From the NCBI GenBank assembly GCA_031292575.1, contig JARLGX010000030.1:1-64000 (forward strand): a stretch of DNA of 64,000 nucleotides, read 5' to 3'. Shown piece after piece: positions 169 through 9,779 of the stretch. Below the pieces are notes generated by a model that was not told where the DNA came from, did not search any database, and worked only from the letters and a program-made list of their open reading frames with translations. Origin of the DNA: Paludibacter sp. GTDB lineage: Bacteria > Bacteroidota > Bacteroidia > Bacteroidales > Paludibacteraceae. Each line of letters begins with the position of its first letter. Position 1 is the first letter of the stretch. The translations under genes were made by a program, and so were the position numbers.

Positions 169-321
169 ATGAAATTATCAAAATTTGATTTAGAAAAAAG
201 AATGTCAATTGCTGACATGAAAATGATTAAAGCCGGTTGTGCAGAAACATGGAGCGGTGGTGGTCATTGTACAAGTTCAGGTTCAGATTCAGAAACCAAT
301 GGTTCTGAATACGATCATTAA
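169..321 (+). CDS. RiPP precursor peptide (graspetide-like, grasp-with-spasm type)
   Basis: A 50-residue peptide that is probably the substrate of the maturases encoded downstream. The leader (about residues 1-23) begins KLSKFDLEKRMS and ends IKAG, the Gly-ending leader type that C39 peptidases of exporters cut. The core (24-50) is CAETW, a GGGH turn, then TSSGSDSETNGSEYDH. This mix of Ser/Thr and Asp/Glu suits ATP-grasp enzymes that join acidic side chains to hydroxyl side chains. Two decayed relatives lie just downstream at 425-489 and 539-704 and share the leader start and the Ser-Ser/Asp core. The ATG follows an AT-rich stretch with no clear ribosome binding site, which is usual in this phylum. 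The product structure is not known from sequence. Confidence 0.85.
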   Translation: MKLSKFDLEKRMSIADMKMIKAGCAETWSGGGHCTSSGSDSETNGSEYDH

Positions 322-339
322 CAATCTTTCTTAATTTTA

Positions 340-369
340 AGAGATAGTAATTATATAATTACTATCTCT
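340..369. terminator. Perfect 30-bp palindrome after the precursor gene
   Basis: Two 15-base arms (left arm AGAGATAGTAATTAT) meet without a loop, 18 bases after the precursor stop codon. The RNA would form a strong hairpin. There is no clean U-run, so it may be a partial terminator or an RNA-end stabiliser that keeps precursor mRNA more abundant than maturase mRNA. A different hairpin sits at the matching place after the third precursor copy (726-758). Confidence 0.55.
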
Positions 370-424
370 ATTATTCAAATACCTTAAATTGATAATTAGA
401 ATTAGAAAAAAATAAATATCAAAT

Positions 425-489
425 ATGAAATCTACAAAAGCTGATTATAGTGTGGTTGTTCTTCAAAGTTTGATACTGACAATGATTAA
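425..489 (+). pseudogene. Deleted remnant of a second precursor peptide gene
   Basis: The start (ATGAAATCTACAAAAGCTGAT) lines up with the first bases of the intact precursor gene, then most of the leader is missing. In another frame, directly after a TAG at 448-450, codons 451-489 read CGCSSKFDTDND and stop, resembling the SSDFDTD core of the third copy. I read this as a precursor gene that lost its leader by internal deletion. The similarity is short, so the call is an inference. Confidence 0.45.
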
Positions 490-538
490 TTTATCAATCT
501 AGGTATAAAAGCATTTCTAATATTAAAATTCAAAAAAA

Positions 539-704
539 TTGAAAATCTCAAAATTTGATTTAGAAAAAAGGATGTCTATAGGAAAGATGAAAACTATAAA
601 TGCAGGGATGCACAGTTGCTTCTTTTGGTGGACATAGTGTTACTAGCTCTGACTTTGATACAGATTTTTTTGTGGCTGTTTTAGTGATAATGGATAGAAA
701 ATAA
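539..704 (+). pseudogene. Frameshifted third precursor peptide gene
   Basis: From a TTG at 539 the frame reads KISKFDLEKRMSIGKMKTINAG, nearly the leader of the intact precursor (KLSKFDLEKRMS). The usual ATG has become TTG. After Ala-Gly the frame hits a stop within ten codons, but skipping one A at 608 restores CTVASFGGHSVTSSDFDTD, which matches the intact core layout (GGGH then TSS and Asp). The restored frame runs to TAA at 702-704. A run of seven T at 665-671 may hide a second shift. It is probably non-functional unless the precursor is expressed by recoding. Confidence 0.7.
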
Positions 705-725
705 CAAATTACAAACTAAATAATT

Positions 726-758
726 AACACAATTATATATTAAATATATGATTGTGTT
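726..758. repeat. AT-rich hairpin after the third precursor copy
   Basis: Arms AACACAAT (726-733) and ATTGTGTT (751-758) enclose an ATATAT-rich inner stem. It lies between the decayed precursor and the ATP-grasp gene, the same placement as the palindrome at 340-369, and would separate precursor from maturase transcripts. Confidence 0.5.
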
Positions 759-788
759 CTAAACTCAATTTACAAAGTTAATATATAA

Positions 789-1796
789 ATGATACTTATT
801 TTTACAATAAAATTTGATTATTCAAGTACTTGTGTTATCAGATGGCTGAACCATTATGGTGTGAAAGTAGTCCGAATTAATGGAGACGATAATACTTATC
901 AGTTTGATGCTATCAATAGCAAAGGTATATTTTTTAGAAATACTCTTACAGATGAATTGATCAATCTGCGAGAAGCTACTGCTTGCTGGTGGAGACGTAC
1001 TGGTATAACACATAATCAGTTAAATGATAAAACATTTCAAATAGATAGAAATAGACTAGTATCTACTAATGAATTTTTATTGTCTCACATCAAGGGACAT
1101 GTTAATGAAGAAATGTTGGCGCTAAAAGATTATATATTTGAAATATTATATAATACTATTCCTATCAATTTAGGCAAACCATTGTTCGATCTTAATCGAT
1201 TGATAATATTGGATTTAGCCGATAAATATGAATTAAAAGTACCACAATTTGAAATTATTAAAGATGGGAAACAACTAATAGAATCACAAAAAAAAATAGG
1301 GAATGTAGTTACAAAAGCTATTTCAAATGGGATTTACAGTGACTATCAGGGAAAAAGATATTATACATATACAGAATTATTGGAAAATGAATTTTATGAA
1401 TCTAATCATCAAAACACGTTTTCTCCTTCTCTGATTTCTGAATTAGTTGAAAAAAAATATGAGATACGCTCGTTTTATATCGAGGGAAAATTTTATTCAA
1501 TGGCTATATTTTCACAATCTAACGAAAAGACAAGAATTGATTTCCGAAAATACGCCAATAATAAAAATGTACCTTATCAATTACCTTTGGAAATTGAAGA
1601 AAAATTAATCCGATTGTTTAAAAAGTTGGATTTGAATTGTGGTTCTGTGGATTTGATTGTAGATAAACAAGATAATTTTATTTTTTTAGAAATTAATCCG
1701 GTAGGTCAGTTTGGAATGACTAGTGAGCCCTGTAATTATAATTTAGAAAAAATAGTAGCAAATTATTTAAGAAATGGTAGAATTAGAACAAATTAA
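789..1796 (+). CDS. gwsG: ATP-grasp peptide maturase (grasp-with-spasm system)
   Basis: A 335-residue cytoplasmic ligase of the ATP-grasp family that modifies RiPP precursors. By analogy with microviridin-type enzymes it would use ATP to link Asp/Glu side chains of the core to Ser/Thr (or Lys). The C-terminal half shows the metal-binding end of the fold: GSVDLIVDK (Asp288) and FLEINPVGQFG (Glu301, Asn303). The N-terminus (ILIFTIKFDYSSTCVIRWL) is like that of other peptide-modifying ATP-grasp enzymes. It overlaps the next gene by 23 bases, so the two are probably translated together. DNA is very AT-rich, unlike the housekeeping genes further right, which suggests transfer. Family assignment is strong; the exact bond formed is inferred. 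Confidence 0.88.
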   Translation: MILIFTIKFDYSSTCVIRWLNHYGVKVVRINGDDNTYQFDAINSKGIFFRNTLTDELINLREATACWWRRTGITHNQLNDKTFQIDRNRLVSTNEFLLSHIKGHVNEEMLALKDYIFEILYNTIPINLGKPLFDLNRLIILDLADKYELKVPQFEIIKDGKQLIESQKKIGNVVTKAISNGIYSDYQGKRYYTYTELLENEFYESNHQNTFSPSLISELVEKKYEIRSFYIEGKFYSMAIFSQSNEKTRIDFRKYANNKNVPYQLPLEIEEKLIRLFKKLDLNCGSVDLIVDKQDNFIFLEINPVGQFGMTSEPCNYNLEKIVANYLRNGRIRTN

Positions 1797-2001
1797 TTTG
1801 GATGCAGATAACTTAAAAGGGTTACCTCTGTTTTATCGTAAAATTTACTTTAATCAATTAACTGATTGGCAAGAAGAAAATAAGTTAATCACATATAGTG
1901 CTTTAATACAAGCTGACGTTATGAGAAGCGTAGAATCTACAAGAAATATTTCAAAGACAGTAAATAAAAAACTTATTTTGGAGAATAATGATAGACAATA
2001 A
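1774..2001 (+). CDS. Small protein between the two maturases, unknown function
   Basis: A 75-residue protein that I do not recognise. It starts inside the end of the ATP-grasp gene and overlaps the start of the SPASM gene by 14 bases, so its translation is likely coupled to both. This tight packing is the main reason to regard it as real. The sequence is mostly charged and polar, with no signal peptide, membrane segment or Cys residues. From its position it could be an adaptor or chaperone for the maturase complex, but nothing in the sequence shows that. Confidence 0.65.
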   Translation: MVELEQINLDADNLKGLPLFYRKIYFNQLTDWQEENKLITYSALIQADVMRSVESTRNISKTVNKKLILENNDRQ

Positions 2002-3043
2002 TTTATATTTTATTTTATCAACTACCTGTAAACTAATAAATGGTTATAAACGAAGTTTAATCGTTGATTATTCTCGTGATGAATTATTTTTTATCAGTAA
2101 TGAGTATTATGATTTATTACTAAAATTAGACAGGCAACGGATAATTGACGTTGAAAAGGAGTTAGAAGATGTTGAATCTGTCAGTTATTTTAATGAATTT
2201 TTATCTTTTATGATAAATAATGAAATAGCAATAATGACAAATGATGCAAAAAAATTCCCCCCTTTAAGCGAAGTTGTGCATGATGAATATGTAAAGATAC
2301 AAGATGTGATAATTGAATTAGACGAATTGTTTTATGATGACGCATCGTTTAGAAAATTATGTAAAGAGCTTACAGAGGTAAATTGCACAGAATTTCAAGT
2401 TCGCATTTTATCAATTTTAAATTTAGAATTTTTAGAAAAAATAATGCAGTTAATAAATACTACTGAAGCTAATTATTTAGAAATACATGCTACCTACAAT
2501 GCTGGCATTGATATAGATTTATTACATAAATTTATTGAGAATAATGCAATAATAAGCAATATTTATTTATACGGCTCGACAAAAGTAAAGAAGTATTCTA
2601 TAGTTAATCAAGTAGATAATTATCAACCCATTAGTTTGGGAACAGTTTATTTTCTTAATTATCCTTTCGATAATGGAAATTGTTGTGGGCTTATTAATTT
2701 TGAAAGTTTAGATTTCTCAGGGTTTTATTATACGCACAATAAACACAAAACAAGAAATGGGTGTTTAGACAAAAAGATTTCAATTGATAAAAAAGGTAAT
2801 ATTAAAAACTGCCCTTCAATGAAAGAAGTTTTTGGTAATATTAATGATGTTACTATAAAGAATGTGTTAACTAATCCTGAGTTTTTGAAATATTGGTACA
2901 TTCATAAAGACAAAATAGAAATTTGTAGAGACTGTGAATTTAGGTATAATTGTAGCGATTGTAGAGCATTTATTCAGAACATAAATAATATTTACAGCAA
3001 ACCATCCAAATGTAGTTACAATCCATATACTTGTGAATGGTAA
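1988..3043 (+). CDS. gwsS: SPASM-domain peptide maturase (grasp-with-spasm system)
   Basis: A 351-residue protein whose C-terminal third has the Cys pattern of a SPASM domain: Cys259 and Cys275 (KNCPSMKEVFGN), then the cluster CRDC...CSDC (Cys313, 316, 322, 325), with further Cys at 342 and 349. Such domains bind auxiliary Fe-S clusters in radical-SAM peptide maturases. The N-terminal part has no CxxxCxxC, so it cannot bind the radical-SAM cluster in the usual way; as I recall, this is normal for the grasp-with-spasm SPASM partner. It probably binds precursor or partner enzyme. The gene overlaps the 75-residue gene before it, and 16 bases separate it from the exporter. Confidence 0.85.
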   Translation: MIDNNLYFILSTTCKLINGYKRSLIVDYSRDELFFISNEYYDLLLKLDRQRIIDVEKELEDVESVSYFNEFLSFMINNEIAIMTNDAKKFPPLSEVVHDEYVKIQDVIIELDELFYDDASFRKLCKELTEVNCTEFQVRILSILNLEFLEKIMQLINTTEANYLEIHATYNAGIDIDLLHKFIENNAIISNIYLYGSTKVKKYSIVNQVDNYQPISLGTVYFLNYPFDNGNCCGLINFESLDFSGFYYTHNKHKTRNGCLDKKISIDKKGNIKNCPSMKEVFGNINDVTIKNVLTNPEFLKYWYIHKDKIEICRDCEFRYNCSDCRAFIQNINNIYSKPSKCSYNPYTCEW

Positions 3044-3059
3044 CCCGTAATATACTACT

Positions 3060-5285
3060 ATGAAGTTATTTAAAACTTTCCCATTTGTTGCACAACACGA
3101 TTCAATGGATTGTGGCCCTGCTTGTTTAGCAATGATTTCGGAATATTATGGAAAAAAACACTCATTACAATTTCTAAGAGATAATTCATATTTAACACGC
3201 GAAGGAGTCAGTTTAATTGGGTTAACAGAAGCTGCCACAAAAATTGGTTTTGAATCAATGGCCTTAAATCTGACGGTTAATGATTTAATAACTGAAAAAG
3301 TATATCCGTGTGTATTATTCTGGAATAGCGGTCATTTTGTTGTATTACACAATATCAGGCAGAATTTTATTACTAAAAAGTACTCGTTTAAGATTGCTGA
3401 TCCTTCGGTTGGTTTTATAAATATACCTGAAGAAAAATTTAAACAATCATGGTTGAATAGTGAGAATGAAGGAGTAGTTTTTGCAGTTGAACCAACAGAA
3501 AATTTCTTTGATTTTGAGCAACAGAAAGAAAAAAATTATAATCTCAAATATCTTTTTGACTATGTTTCACCATACAAAAAACAGTTACTTCAATTAATAT
3601 TTAGTTTAGCTGTTGGCAGTTTACTAACATTAATTCTCCCATTTTTAACACAAGCATTAATTGATAAAGGAGTTAGTGCTCATAATCTGAATATCGTATT
3701 TTTAATACTTCTTTCTCAAATATTTGTTTTTCTGGGCTCTGTAATCATTGAGATTGTACGTAACTGGTTAATTCTATATATTGGAGCTAGAGTTAATATT
3801 TCTATCATTTCTGATTTTTTTCGAAAGATTATGAAATTACCCCTTAAATTTTTTGAAACAAAATTTTTGGGAGATTTTTACCAACGTATTCAGGATCATT
3901 CAAGAATAGAAAACTTTCTTACCTCACAAAGTTTGACTACTTTTTTTTCTCTAATAAATTTTCTAATTTTCTTTATTGTCTTACTTCATTATAGTTTTAA
4001 AATTTTATTTTTATATGTAACATTAACTTGTTTAGCGATTATTTGGTCCCGTTTTTTCTTAAAAAGGAGAGAAATTCTTGATTATTTCAGGTTTAAAACT
4101 AATTCACTAAACCAAGAGGCAGTAAATGAGATGATTTATGGAATACAAGAAATAAAACTAAATAATTTTGAAAATTATAAGATAGAAAAATGGGAAAAGG
4201 TACAGATTGATGTTTTTGGCGTAAATCTTAAAGTGTTAAGGTTAGATCAACTCCAATTAATAGGATTTGACTTTATTAATCAAATAAAAAATATTATTGT
4301 TACTTACCTTGCTGCACGTTTAGTCATTCTTGGATATATTACTCTTGGTGGAATGTTAAGTATATCGTATATAATTGGACAAATGAACTCACCTGTTAAT
4401 CAGCTAATTGCATTCTTTCGTTCTTTGCAAGATGCACAATTAAGTATGAAACGTCTTACAGAAGTACAATATTATCAAGAAGAAGAATCAGAAGAATTAA
4501 TAACTCTTCCAAAAACTAACAATACATCATATAAAAATGGTACAAAAGGTATTCAAATGAATAATGTCAGTTTTCAATATGAAGGTCCTTTATCCCCATT
4601 CGTATTAAAAGATATAAACTTATTTATTCCTGAAGGAAAAACAACAGCCATCGTTGGAGCAAGCGGTTGTGGTAAAACAACATTAATGAAACTTCTTTTA
4701 CGATTTTACGAACCTGTAAATGGCGAAATAATCGTAAACGGAACTAAATTAAATCAGATTTCTCCTTTAAACTGGAGGAAAAACTGTGGAGTAGTAATGC
4801 AGGATGGTTTTATCTTTTCGGAAACAATTGCCCGGAATATTGCTACAAACGAAATAACTATTTGTCCTGAAAAATTATCAAACGCCATTAATATTGCAAA
4901 TATTACTGATTTTGTTGAGAGTTTGCCACTGAAGGAAAATACAATAATTGGTTCAATGGGCAATGGCATTTCAAGCGGTCAAAGACAACGAATATTAATA
5001 GCAAGATCTGTTTATAAACAACCGCAATATATTTTATTTGATGAAGCAACAAGCGCATTAGATACTGAGAATGAAAAAATCATTCATGATAATCTGAATA
5101 ATTTTTTTATGAATAAAACAGTAATTATCATTGCTCATAGATTAAGCACGGTAAAAAATGCTGATCAAATTGTAGTTATGAAAGATGGAGAAGTTGTAGA
5201 AATAGGCAATCATATTGAATTAACGAAAGCTAAAGGAATATATTTTAACTTGGTAAAAAACCAATTAGAATTAGAAAAATCATGA
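3060..5285 (+). CDS. Peptidase-containing ABC transporter (C39 peptidase exporter)
   Basis: An exporter that removes the leader from the modified peptide and pumps the product out. The N-terminal C39 peptidase shows QHDSMDCGPAC (Gln12, catalytic Cys18), His92 in SGHFVVLH and Asp114 in ADPSVG. A membrane domain (about 165-460) follows, then the ATPase: Walker A GASGCGKTT near residue 533, signature ISSGQRQR (SSGQ in place of the usual SGGQ) near 637, Walker B ILFDEATSALD and the switch His in IIAHRLS. At 741 residues it has the usual length. No HlyD-type periplasmic adaptor or TolC is next to it, so those partners must be elsewhere or are not needed. Confidence 0.93.
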   Translation: MKLFKTFPFVAQHDSMDCGPACLAMISEYYGKKHSLQFLRDNSYLTREGVSLIGLTEAATKIGFESMALNLTVNDLITEKVYPCVLFWNSGHFVVLHNIRQNFITKKYSFKIADPSVGFINIPEEKFKQSWLNSENEGVVFAVEPTENFFDFEQQKEKNYNLKYLFDYVSPYKKQLLQLIFSLAVGSLLTLILPFLTQALIDKGVSAHNLNIVFLILLSQIFVFLGSVIIEIVRNWLILYIGARVNISIISDFFRKIMKLPLKFFETKFLGDFYQRIQDHSRIENFLTSQSLTTFFSLINFLIFFIVLLHYSFKILFLYVTLTCLAIIWSRFFLKRREILDYFRFKTNSLNQEAVNEMIYGIQEIKLNNFENYKIEKWEKVQIDVFGVNLKVLRLDQLQLIGFDFINQIKNIIVTYLAARLVILGYITLGGMLSISYIIGQMNSPVNQLIAFFRSLQDAQLSMKRLTEVQYYQEEESEELITLPKTNNTSYKNGTKGIQMNNVSFQYEGPLSPFVLKDINLFIPEGKTTAIVGASGCGKTTLMKLLLRFYEPVNGEIIVNGTKLNQISPLNWRKNCGVVMQDGFIFSETIARNIATNEITICPEKLSNAINIANITDFVESLPLKENTIIGSMGNGISSGQRQRILIARSVYKQPQYILFDEATSALDTENEKIIHDNLNNFFMNKTVIIIAHRLSTVKNADQIVVMKDGEVVEIGNHIELTKAKGIYFNLVKNQLELEKS

Positions 5286-5288
5286 CTT

Positions 5289-5453
5289 ATGGATTCCTTA
5301 AAAAATGAACTCGATAAAAATAAATTCTTTGTTATAAAATATGCAACAATCCTTAATGTTTTGGTTTTGATTTGCATCTTTTTATTTCTCATTTCAATAA
5401 GAATTGATAAAATATCAATTCTTTCGATGACTTTAGATTATTATTTTAAGTAA
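5289..5453 (+). CDS. 54-residue single-pass membrane peptide
   Basis: A short gene three bases after the exporter stop codon. It encodes a charged start (MDSLKNELDKNKF), one hydrophobic helix (about residues 19-37, LNVLVLICIFLFLISI) and a short tail ending DYYFK. The position and same-strand spacing suggest co-transcription with the exporter. It could be an exporter subunit, an immunity peptide, or what is left of a HlyD-type adaptor, whose N-terminus has the same layout. I cannot place it in a family. Confidence 0.55.
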   Translation: MDSLKNELDKNKFFVIKYATILNVLVLICIFLFLISIRIDKISILSMTLDYYFK

Positions 5454-5462
5454 TTCTCAAAA

Positions 5463-7070
5463 ATGAATCTTATCCAAACCCTTTACATCGATCCATCAAA
5501 ACGTCCATTTACAGATAGTTTTGGTTGGTTAAAGCCTGAATATCATTTAATGAGTTGGGCATTGAGCTGTTTACAGTTGCAAAAGTTATATGGTAATGTT
5601 GAGCTTTATGCCAATAGTACTGCGGCTGAGTTATTAATAGACATACTTGAGTTGCCTTACACGACTCTACATACTAATCACGATGATTTGAAACTTGCTG
5701 ATACCAATTTGTGGGCATTACCCAAGATTTACACTTACTCGTTACAAGATGAACCCTTTCTTCATATTGATGGTGATGTGTTTATTTTCAATAAATTTGC
5801 TGACTCATTACTTCAAAGTTCTTTAATAACACAAAATATTGAAGTTGCCACCGATTATTATACAATCACACAAAAGCAATTGATGGAGAATTTTACTTAT
5901 TTTCCTCCATGCGTTAAAGCCGATTTCTATTCAAACATTCCTATTAATGCTGTAAACGCAGGCATATTGGGAGGTAATAACATATCATTTATAAAACAAT
6001 ATACTACAGAAGCGTTTAAGTATGTAAATAGTAACATCAACCATTTCCAGAATATAAATATTGATAAGTTTAATGTTTTTTTTGAGCAGCATTTATTTTA
6101 TTCATTGGCAAAAGAACAAAATATCCCTATTAATTTTCTTTTTAATGATATATTTGAAGATCGAGGTTATTTATATCTTGGAAATTTTCAAGAAGTACCT
6201 TATGAAAGAACATATTTACACTTATTAGGTCATTACAAGCGTGATAAGATTACTTGCATGCAAATGGCTGCTAAACTGAGAGAATTGTACCCAGAATATT
6301 ACTATAAAATTATAGCACTTTGTAAAAAGCAAAACGTGACACTTTTTACTAGTTTCTATAACGATAAGAATATTGATAAAAAAAGTGAATATCAGCAACT
6401 CATCGACAAAGCAACTGAAAGTTTTCAAAATGATATTCGTATTGATAACAACGAATGCTCCAAATCCAAAGCTGAACCAGATTTATCTTTATTAAAAAAA
6501 ATCTTTGATATGTATGTTGTAAACTCTCATGAAAAACTTGACTTGCAATATTTAAAAAATGATTTTGATGTTTTCACGCAAAAACTAAACACAATTCTAA
6601 AAGAGAATGCTCTACTGTCAGATTATTACCTGTACGGAAGAGACATTGCTGCAGCTGGATGGTATGCTGAAATTTTTATAAACAATAATTTTTTAAATAA
6701 AATTATATCCAGAACTGAAGGTTTAAACATTATAGAATCGGAATATAATTGGGCAGGTTTGATAAATAAACATACTAGAATAGGAATTCAATATTATGAA
6801 ACATTAACGCTATCACAAGAGCATTTTTTTAATTTAGTAATTCCAGAAATTATCGGAAATAAGTTTTTACTTTATGATATTGACGAATTAGAGAAGAAAG
6901 TACTGGAACATTTGTCAGAACCTTTATCGGTAAAAGATCTTTTTACAACAATGCAACAATATTTTGATGATGATGTAATTCAAAATCATTATGATGCTTT
7001 TGAAGACTTTATCGTAAAAGTTATCAAACAGTTAGTTGTAAAGAAAGCTATTAAACCTTCATATTGTTAA
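5463..7070 (+). CDS. DUF6734-like glycosyltransferase-type protein with PqqD-like tail
   Basis: A 535-residue cytoplasmic protein. The N-terminal part (YIDPSKRPFTDSFGWLKPEYH, then HIDGDVFIF with Asp103-Gly-Asp105) matches my memory of DUF6734, which resembles nucleotide-sugar transferases with a DxD metal site. The last part (about 465-532: LLYDIDELEKKVLEHLSEPL, then a helix ending VIKQLVVKKAIKP) has the spacing of a PqqD-like leader-recognition domain. It starts nine bases after the membrane peptide and ends the cluster. It may glycosylate the peptide or bind its leader. Function is inferred from context. Confidence 0.6.
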   Translation: MNLIQTLYIDPSKRPFTDSFGWLKPEYHLMSWALSCLQLQKLYGNVELYANSTAAELLIDILELPYTTLHTNHDDLKLADTNLWALPKIYTYSLQDEPFLHIDGDVFIFNKFADSLLQSSLITQNIEVATDYYTITQKQLMENFTYFPPCVKADFYSNIPINAVNAGILGGNNISFIKQYTTEAFKYVNSNINHFQNINIDKFNVFFEQHLFYSLAKEQNIPINFLFNDIFEDRGYLYLGNFQEVPYERTYLHLLGHYKRDKITCMQMAAKLRELYPEYYYKIIALCKKQNVTLFTSFYNDKNIDKKSEYQQLIDKATESFQNDIRIDNNECSKSKAEPDLSLLKKIFDMYVVNSHEKLDLQYLKNDFDVFTQKLNTILKENALLSDYYLYGRDIAAAGWYAEIFINNNFLNKIISRTEGLNIIESEYNWAGLINKHTRIGIQYYETLTLSQEHFFNLVIPEIIGNKFLLYDIDELEKKVLEHLSEPLSVKDLFTTMQQYFDDDVIQNHYDAFEDFIVKVIKQLVVKKAIKPSYC

Positions 7071-7210: not shown

Positions 7211-7458
7211 TAACTAACGTGAGTTCGATATAAGGTTTCTGTCTGCAATTATTTTAAATAGCTATTAAATAAGGGAATATGGGCTTTTATCCCTGGGATT
7301 ATTTTTCTACTAAGGGCACAAATCATTTTTTTAAATAAGGTTCTTATTGAAACCCTTAGTAGCAACCAATAAACCCCATCAAATCTCACCCTTATTTTAT
7401 TTTGTTCATATGATTACCAAAGCGTTAAGTTTTTTTATGTCGAACTCACGTTAACTAA
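7211..7458. mobile_element. MITE-like element with terminal inverted repeats
   Basis: Ends 7215-7233 and 7435-7453 are inverted repeats (18 of 19 match, core TAACGTGAGTTCGA). The 7-base word TAACTAA stands outside both ends (7211-7217, 7452-7458) and could be a target duplication. The interior has further nested inverted repeats, such as CTACTAAGGG (7307-7316) with CCCTTAGTAG (7353-7362), and no coding frame, so this is a non-autonomous, strongly folding element. The rest of the 542-base gap between genes holds a GC-rich palindrome near 7079-7111 and nothing else I recognise. Confidence 0.65.
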
Positions 7459-8933: not shown

Positions 8934-9779
8934 TTACTTCACCAACTTCATTATTTCAGGATTATTCTCAATATATTTATTCGCAGCATCATATCCATAT
9001 CCGTAGATAGCCTGATAGGCATCGAAACTAAATACATTGTATTCCTCAATAGCTTTTGGCTCAATAATAAAACGGCATAAGTTACGTCCTGCTTTTGAAT
9101 TTTGAAATTGAACAGCACGAACAGCATACACAAGCGTGTCTATTGGTTTCTTTAATTCCGTTGGAACGCGGTGCGGAATCACATCCACTCCGATAATTGT
9201 GGGGCAAACATTTTCTATCGCCTGAGCCGGCATGTTGTTGAGCAAACCTCCATCGATATAAAAGATATCATCGAGCTTTATTGTTTCAAAAACAGCAGGA
9301 ATACTGGCTGAAGCAGCCACCCATTTATCAAGTTTTGATCCGGTGTCAACTATTTCCCATTCGGCTTTATTCAGGTTTACAACACAGATATATAATTTCT
9401 TTTGCAATTGTTCAAAACTATTATGCGGAATCAATTCCCGAATTAACGACCTAAGCATAGTATGCGTTGACAACCCCGACCGGGAAAAAGTGGGACGAAA
9501 AGTCATCAGCTTAGTGACTTTGTATAGCTTATCTTCTTTAATCAGCTGAAGCATTTCGGCAGGCGAATAACCCGCAGCATATAAAGTCCCCACAACGGCT
9601 CCCATACTTGAACCTACAATGTGAGTAGGATAAATTCCATGTTCCTCGAGCGATTGTAGTACACCGATGTGTGCAAAACCCAATGCACCTCCCCCACTCA
9701 AACATATACCGAGTGAATTGTTTTTTTCGGGAGATTTGAAAATGTTTTTCATTATCTTTATCATTTTAGTTTTTATCAA
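8934..9779 (-). CDS. Patatin-like phospholipase family protein
   Basis: A 281-residue serine hydrolase of the patatin/RssA family that would cleave acyl esters of lipids. Visible motifs are the oxyanion-hole loop SGGGALG, the nucleophile elbow GSSMG (GxSxG) and the catalytic Asp in DGGLLNNMP, together the Ser-Asp dyad of the family. No signal peptide, so cytoplasmic. A second in-frame ATG (MKNIFKSP) ten codons in may be the true start. It points toward the gene at 7613 and stands alone. Confidence 0.88.
   Translation of the reverse strand: MIKTKMIKIMKNIFKSPEKNNSLGICLSGGGALGFAHIGVLQSLEEHGIYPTHIVGSSMGAVVGTLYAAGYSPAEMLQLIKEDKLYKVTKLMTFRPTFSRSGLSTHTMLRSLIRELIPHNSFEQLQKKLYICVVNLNKAEWEIVDTGSKLDKWVAASASIPAVFETIKLDDIFYIDGGLLNNMPAQAIENVCPTIIGVDVIPHRVPTELKKPIDTLVYAVRAVQFQNSKAGRNLCRFIIEPKAIEEYNVFSFDAYQAIYGYGYDAANKYIENNPEIMKLVK

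Follow-up and report, generated by a model that had tools for sequence, protein, structure and literature searches.

A grasp-with-spasm peptide cluster of Paludibacter with a predicted DUF6734 glycosyltransferase and a candidate glycosylated graspetide

What is made by the compact group of genes near the start of contig JARLGX010000030.1 of Paludibacter sp. (Bacteroidota; GenBank assembly GCA_031292575.1), and how much of its machinery is already known from other peptide systems? The window analysed here is the stretch of 64,000 nucleotides from position 1 of that contig (forward strand), and the genes in question occupy positions 169–7070. The answer we prefer, with a probability of roughly 60% and judging from sequence comparisons and predicted structures, is that they constitute a complete and probably functional cluster for a ribosomally synthesized and post-translationally modified peptide (RiPP) of the grasp-with-spasm kind, the exported product of which would be a graspetide cross-linked between Thr/Ser and Asp/Glu residues and probably glycosylated. 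The locus comprises seven open reading frames (ORFs), all on the + strand, and our ORF list agrees with an earlier note on this DNA in their number, places and orientation:

169–321, + strand: precursor (GwsA-type), 50 residues, from the ORF and a hidden Markov model (HMM) of relatives' precursors
789–1796, + strand: gwsG, ATP-grasp peptide ligase (predicted macrocyclase), 335 residues, from TIGR04192
1774–2001, + strand: LPL-type small protein of 75 residues, GLPLFYRKIYFNQ, from position and motif as described in passages of PMC8939145
1988–3043, + strand: gwsS, RiPP recognition element (RRE)-like domain, radical S-adenosylmethionine (SAM)-like barrel lacking CX3CX2C, and SPASM part, 351 residues, from TIGR04193, a structural model and fold matches
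3060–5285, + strand: C39 peptidase–ABC exporter, 741 residues, peptidase domain at 3078–3452, from Pfam
5289–5453, + strand: peptide of 54 residues with one hydrophobic span, from counterparts in the subclade defined below
5463–7070, + strand: DUF6734 protein, predicted GT-A glycosyltransferase, 535 residues, from PF20508 and an AlphaFold2 model

The tight packing remarked on in the same note is real from gwsG onwards, where overlaps of 23 and 14 nt are followed by gaps of 16, 3 and 9 nt; the precursor lies 467 nt ahead of gwsG.

The assignment to the grasp-with-spasm family, proposed earlier from the sequence alone, is firm, GwsG scoring 337.8 bits against TIGR04192 (cut-off 230) and GwsS 295.1 bits against TIGR04193 (cut-off 175). 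The exporter matches PF03412 at 104.6 bits together with PF00005 and PF00664, and both TIGR04192 and the C39 peptidase domain PF03412 have a single match in the genome, each in this cluster. The class itself is already known: passages of Makarova et al. 2022 (PMC8939145) treat it as 'branch 5', with 190 loci among the larger graspetide branches of Bacteroidota, and report a cluster 23 lipoprotein-like protein in almost all of these loci; the seven genes described here include none of this sort, the DNA further upstream lying off the contig. The accessible parts of Carter et al. 2026 (PMC13097080) indicate that it is probably their 'group 14'. The product class had been supposed to be little characterised, and our searches of the open literature (supplements being outside their scope) indeed found no characterised product.

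Counting the genome under study, 5 of 300 genomes from its family score above the cut-off of TIGR04193, and 14 of 395 from its phylum above that of TIGR04192. Twenty stretches were fetched around the stronger matches; 19 of them contain GwsG (28–39% identical to that of the window), the remaining one, L060, being a genuine radical SAM locus. Close counterparts turned up via DUF6734, in Prevotella amnii DSM 23384, Kordia and Segatella copri. The P. amnii strain, with identities to the window of 51% for GwsG, 42% for GwsS, 60% for the C39 exporter and 52% for DUF6734, has three grasp-with-spasm loci (L202/L123, L203 and L204) with unlike precursors and DUF6734 beside each. IQ-TREE trees place the window, L123, L203, L206, L207 and L209 together on one side of a branch supported by 100/99 in the GwsS tree (31 rows) and 100/100 in the GwsG tree (28 rows, all longer than 250 residues, and hence lacking L123, L062 and L070). 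This subclade is rare: at E 1e-60 it was met in 3 of 150 genomes drawn around P. amnii. A draw around Kordia at the looser E 1e-50 gave 3 of 295 genomes, namely Kordia, L214 and one resembling L065, the latter two falling outside the subclade in the trees.

Does the cluster have a functional precursor? We built an HMM from 17 precursors of the subclade, near-copies included and the window left out, and compared it with the 1798 ORFs of the window. The frame 133–318 was the sole significant match (E 8e-7; runner-up E 1.2), and since the gene set is also found in other genomes, the cluster is more than a chance arrangement. The precursor thus remains next to the maturase genes both here and in the relatives, which had been set beforehand as a test. 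That only one precursor is intact, as already noticed, also holds, the second copy being decayed. The relevant features are as follows:

169–237, + strand: predicted leader, MKLSKFDLEKRMSIADMKMIKAG, from alignment with relatives' precursors
238–318, + strand: predicted core of 27 residues, CAETWSGGGHCTSSGSDSETNGSEYDH, following a cut after KAG (residue 23)
539–704, + strand: decayed second precursor copy, with TTG for ATG at the start and the frame broken past the leader
425–489, + strand: possible decayed precursor tail, uncertain, with weak DNA similarity only

The leader is of the double-glycine (GG) type, with AG replacing GG as in P. amnii L202. The cut is placed after KAG because the end of the leader aligns with KAG/GG at residue 23 and the P. 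amnii relative has VKAG, so that the sequence likely reads KAG|C at the cut and the core has 27 residues rather than the 16 (TSSG...) of the earlier note; the core TSSGSDSETNGSEYDH was rejected on the same match of the leader end. In the decayed copy at 539–704 the leader is still recognisable (65% identity across 26 residues, E 8.5e-5), and DNA alignment detects the copy as well; it ranks second in the HMM search, with a non-significant E of 1.2. The precursor, the 75-residue protein and the 54-residue peptide have no Pfam or NCBIfam match above cut-off.

The core carries the pattern [DE]x[DE]x4[DE]x[DE], in the form DSETNGSEYD, which recurs in 16 of the 17 relatives' precursors and arises in 0.5% of shuffled versions of the window core. 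A Thr or Ser lies no more than six residues ahead of it, and the two elements together give, as read from the sequence, the layout of donors and acceptors expected of a graspetide.

A further question concerns GwsS, a relative of radical enzymes. Its recognisable parts are these:

2003–2242, + strand: GwsS residues 6–85, RRE-like (leader-binding winged helix-turn-helix) domain
2762–3013, + strand: GwsS SPASM cysteines C259, C275, C313, C316, C322, C325 and C342

The N-terminus of the predicted model matches the PqqD-like winged helix-turn-helix fold, its lack of a match to the PqqD sequence profile notwithstanding. The SPASM part scores 25.5 bits against PF13186 (cut-off 21.5) and retains both auxiliary-cluster sets of cysteines; the seven residues are invariant across an alignment of five proteins, four from the subclade plus L184, and have counterparts in all six GwsS proteins of the subclade, that of L203 included. 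The radical-SAM motif CX3CX2C is absent from the window protein and occurs in none of 29 homologs longer than 300 residues (two fragments among the 31 rows being uncounted), while it is present in the true radical SAM protein of L060 in the comparison alignment. Because this motif is missing, GwsS is most likely a scaffold or peptide holder, its catalytic motif lost; radical chemistry by it is unlikely, and radical thioether formation was for the same reason discarded as the leading explanation. Products other than those with radical thioether or C–C bonds would consequently have to be looked for. The GwsS profile found weak unrelated matches only among PDB sequences, and the single GwsS sequence used as query found no match in the genome contigs. 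In L066, L067, L068, L069 and L073, GwsS also lacks some of the SPASM cysteines, a further step in the decay of the radical-SAM fold.

What, then, could the DUF6734 protein contribute? It matches PF20508 over residues 1–285 of 535 with 348.3 bits (cut-off 27), and its AlphaFold2 model reaches a predicted local distance difference test score (pLDDT) of 93.4 and a predicted template-modelling score (pTM) of 0.92. Two domains stand out:

5463–6329, + strand: GT-A domain, residues 1–289, with D103/D105 (DxD), G167, G170, G171, E208, Q209, H253 and K259
6675–7064, + strand: C-terminal domain, residues 405–534, probably PqqD-like, from hhalign

The model has the GT-A fold together with a DxD motif, and this motif, the His and the Lys are invariant in all 48 proteins compared. 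We therefore predict with high confidence that DUF6734 is a GT-A glycosyltransferase-like protein similar to glycogenin and LgtC. The tail matched the PqqD profile in hhalign at 83% (E 8.6e-6; controls at most 2.2%), in a comparison of profiles; VIA-align, which barely tested the C-terminal part, listed no match for it. A sugar on the peptide, raised as a possibility in the earlier note, is, from the sequence and the model, probable.

An alignment search of genome contigs found 162 relatives of DUF6734, and 79 loci among them form the basis of the counts given here: GG-leader peptides adjoin DUF6734 in 30 and C39 exporters in 40, raw counts made around this gene only. Some of these loci are worth mentioning in their own right. 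L119 has a second predicted glycosyltransferase (PF04488, 6184–7806) between DUF6734 and the exporter, and three GG-leader peptides. The Flavobacterium loci L142, L153 and L156 each encode, near DUF6734 and a C39 exporter, between two and four GG-leader peptides that are rich in Cys and about 66 residues long, possibly glycocin-like families. L113 and L114 encode short relatives of about 300 residues with neighbours that look phage-like by eye; the family is thus not confined to peptide clusters. In the literature, passages of PMC12710340 report RREs fused to PF00535 glycosyltransferases as a prediction, and passages of PMC10352776 note glycosyltransferases in Bacteroidales RiPP clusters. Our searches found no paper on DUF6734 (a link might be made in supplements), the text of PMC8939145 and PMC13097080, so far as accessible, does not name it, and a graspetide and a glycosyltransferase were met together only in passages on separate clusters.

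The two small proteins had been regarded as additions to the cluster, which is apt for the 54-residue peptide, a conserved gene of the subclade, and not for the 75-residue protein, a standing member of the class. A small ORF of 53–87 residues lies between gwsG and gwsS in all 31 pairs (pair L061 also has a 300-residue ORF there), and P[LIMFV].[FYL] occurs in 16 of these 31 ORFs, against 4.8 expected from shuffles. The 75-residue protein carries GLPLF and overlaps both neighbours, as befits an LPL-type gene; it was rejected as a second precursor, being of LPL type with no GG site. By tblastn it matches L203, L206, L207 and L209 (34–37%), and at E 1e-3 it has no match to the 70-residue ORF at the same position in L123. 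The LPL segments in the subclade read LPLFYRKIYFN, LPLFFKTIYHN and LPMFFKKIFYN, P. amnii L123 deviating with YSLAFVRLYYS. The family is described in passages of PMC8939145, where a resemblance of its motif to Phh in the leaders of other graspetides is pointed out, and a role in activating GwsG is a lead taken by analogy from there.

Counterparts of the 54-residue peptide, 52–55 residues long and with a hydropathy maximum of 2.5–3.1, directly follow the exporter in all six loci of the subclade. With tblastn at E 1e-3 the peptide matches L206 only, and each of the five counterparts aligns to it better than 500 of 500 shuffles of itself, with 13–22 identities. In five loci outside the subclade (L055, L066, L070, L071 and L214; not in L065 and L073) the position is occupied by a HlyD gene. 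After the 54-residue peptide, where the window has DUF6734, L206 (5385–6965) and L209 (11147–12733, oriented) encode a protein of 526–528 residues, that of L206 having no Pfam match.

How might these proteins act together? GwsS would bind the leader MKLSKFDLEKRMSIADMKMIKAG through its N-terminal RRE-like domain and serve as scaffold or partner rather than as a radical enzyme. By analogy with its family, GwsG would couple Thr/Ser side chains, at the expense of ATP, to the conserved acidic residues of D-S-E-T-N-G-S-E-Y-D, each bond lowering the mass by 18 Da. GwsG may be activated by the LPL protein, which has a PLF segment similar to the motif in the leaders of other graspetides. DUF6734 would then probably attach a sugar to a Ser or Thr (or to Tyr/Cys) of this peptide. 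Cleavage after KAG and export of the 27-residue core would fall to the C39 exporter, which has the single C39 match of the genome, and the 54-residue peptide takes the gene position of HlyD in other loci.

Several observations weigh against this scheme. Of the 79 DUF6734 loci, 31 have neither a GG leader nor a C39 domain. Among 30 grasp-with-spasm loci, the window included, DUF6734 is present in seven, four of which (L123, L207, L209 and L211) were found through DUF6734 itself, and at E 1e-3 it was detected in none of the 20 fetched stretches. It lies upstream in L207 and L209 and is shorter there (458 and 452 residues), and the copy in L203, close to a contig end, lacks part of its N-terminus, so that the gene might be part of an adjacent unit. 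The L206 contig ends upstream of the locus, placing any upstream DUF6734 there beyond view. As for the enzyme, the DUF6734 profile found no glycosyltransferase among PDB sequences, only weak unrelated matches, Pfam assigns the protein to no glycosyltransferase family such as GT8, its Foldseek TM-scores are moderate (0.35–0.55 depending on the target), and the PqqD match of the tail is moderate too. The GwsS model, from five sequences, has a pLDDT of 73 and falls below 50 across much of the SPASM part. The precursor of P. amnii L202 reads DSDKGGSAHD, with the third acidic residue missing, gwsG of this closest locus (L202/L123) is split over two contigs, and the decayed second precursor of the window may mean that the locus is losing genes.

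Could the product simply be an ordinary graspetide, with ester or amide bonds only, and DUF6734 a neighbour acting on a cell-surface glycan or in self-protection? The 23 of 30 grasp-with-spasm loci where DUF6734 was not found, the 31 DUF6734 loci with neither C39 domain nor GG leader, and the short relatives in other settings (L113, L114) speak for this, but the gene starts 9 nt behind the 54-residue gene in one operon, an order kept in P. amnii, relatives adjoin GG-leader peptides in many loci that lack GwsG, and a PqqD-like tail suits a peptide substrate; we regard this explanation as unlikely. Considerably less likely still is genuine radical catalysis by GwsS, in which an atypical cluster site would serve to form C–S or C–C bonds with the two core cysteines; against it stand the distribution of CX3CX2C set out above, the loss of SPASM cysteines as well in L066–L069 and L073, and the fact that cysteine positions differ among the relatives' precursors. 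A cluster that is decaying and makes nothing, with the contig edge hiding more loss, would account for the broken copy at 539–704 and the possible remnant at 425–489, but all seven genes are open, the intact precursor retains leader, cut site and acidic motif, and DUF6734 retains its motifs, which makes this, too, quite improbable.

A broader picture may also be sketched, which we put forward tentatively and hold to be somewhat short of even odds. DUF6734 proteins might be widespread, unrecognised retaining GT8-like peptide glycosyltransferases of Bacteroidota, binding GG-type leaders through the PqqD-like tail; where an exporter is their sole partner they would give glycocin-like peptides, and here, joined to a grasp-with-spasm system, a glycosylated graspetide, the handling of the leader being split between the dead radical-SAM scaffold GwsS and the LPL protein, which would provide the ATP-grasp enzyme with an activating helix in trans. 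The open literature searched yielded no mention of the subclade, of the missing radical-SAM motif in GwsS or of the link with DUF6734. The locus offers a compact seven-gene case, in which a single intact precursor is accompanied by one ligase, one probable scaffold and a candidate glycosyltransferase, and were the proposal on DUF6734 true, the family would offer a way to mine Bacteroidota genomes for glycosylated peptides. A GwsS without the radical-SAM motif also fits the report, in passages of PMC13097080, that some graspetide synthetases need partner proteins.

The surroundings of the genes add some details. The window begins at a contig end, and further precursors upstream may be lost beyond it. 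Between the precursor and the maturase genes lies one more feature:

340–369, + strand: 13-bp hairpin (−15.1 kcal/mol, z −3.1)

It is possibly an attenuator or a processing site; a terminator scan called no terminator there. The Bacteroidota promoter pattern has 10 matches against 6.6 by chance, none of them within the cluster. Just downstream of the cluster, at 7215–7453, is an element of about 240 bp resembling a miniature inverted-repeat transposable element, with 19-nt terminal inverted repeats and a second copy in the genome (contig C35, 133806–134039; 93% identical over 233 bases), and at 8934–9779 on the − strand a patatin-like phospholipase (PF01734) unconnected to the cluster.

How does the locus compare with known systems? 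With branch 5 in general it has in common the ATP-grasp enzyme, the SPASM protein, an LPL-type gene immediately ahead of that for the SPASM protein, upstream GG-type precursors and the C39 exporter; it differs in that a membrane peptide of 52–55 residues after the exporter replaces HlyD and a DUF6734 protein is present. The microviridin-type ligases MvdC and MvdD (TIGR04185 and TIGR04184) belong to the same ATP-grasp superfamily as GwsG, which scores 104 and 98 bits against them, far below the cut-offs of 425 and 475. Thr/Ser–Asp/Glu chemistry is expected here as in microviridins, but the locus lacks a leader of the PFFARFL type characteristic of microviridins and has an extra RRE-like protein. 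GwsS shares the RRE, the barrel and the SPASM fold with the radical SAM maturases SuiB and CteB, from which it differs by the absence of CX3CX2C. In having a radical-SAM-like partner with no catalysis assigned it resembles the pseudo-rSAM proteins found in RiPP clusters of Bacteroidales (IPR026418; passages of PMC10352776), but these are a separate family reported there alongside a radical SAM enzyme, none of which was recognised in this cluster. DUF6734 shares the GT-A fold, the DxD motif and the late His and Lys with the retaining GT8/GT6 enzymes (glycogenin, LgtC, alpha-1,3-galactosyltransferase), whereas it lacks sequence-level membership of these families and has an extra helical middle part and the probably PqqD-like tail. 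Glycocin systems, finally, have a leader peptide, a C39 exporter and a glycosyltransferase-like candidate maturase in common with loci of DUF6734 relatives such as L117; the known glycocin glycosyltransferases (SunS-type) are inverting, GT2-like and mostly from Bacillota, whereas the predicted enzyme described here has a GT8-like fold and comes from Bacteroidota.

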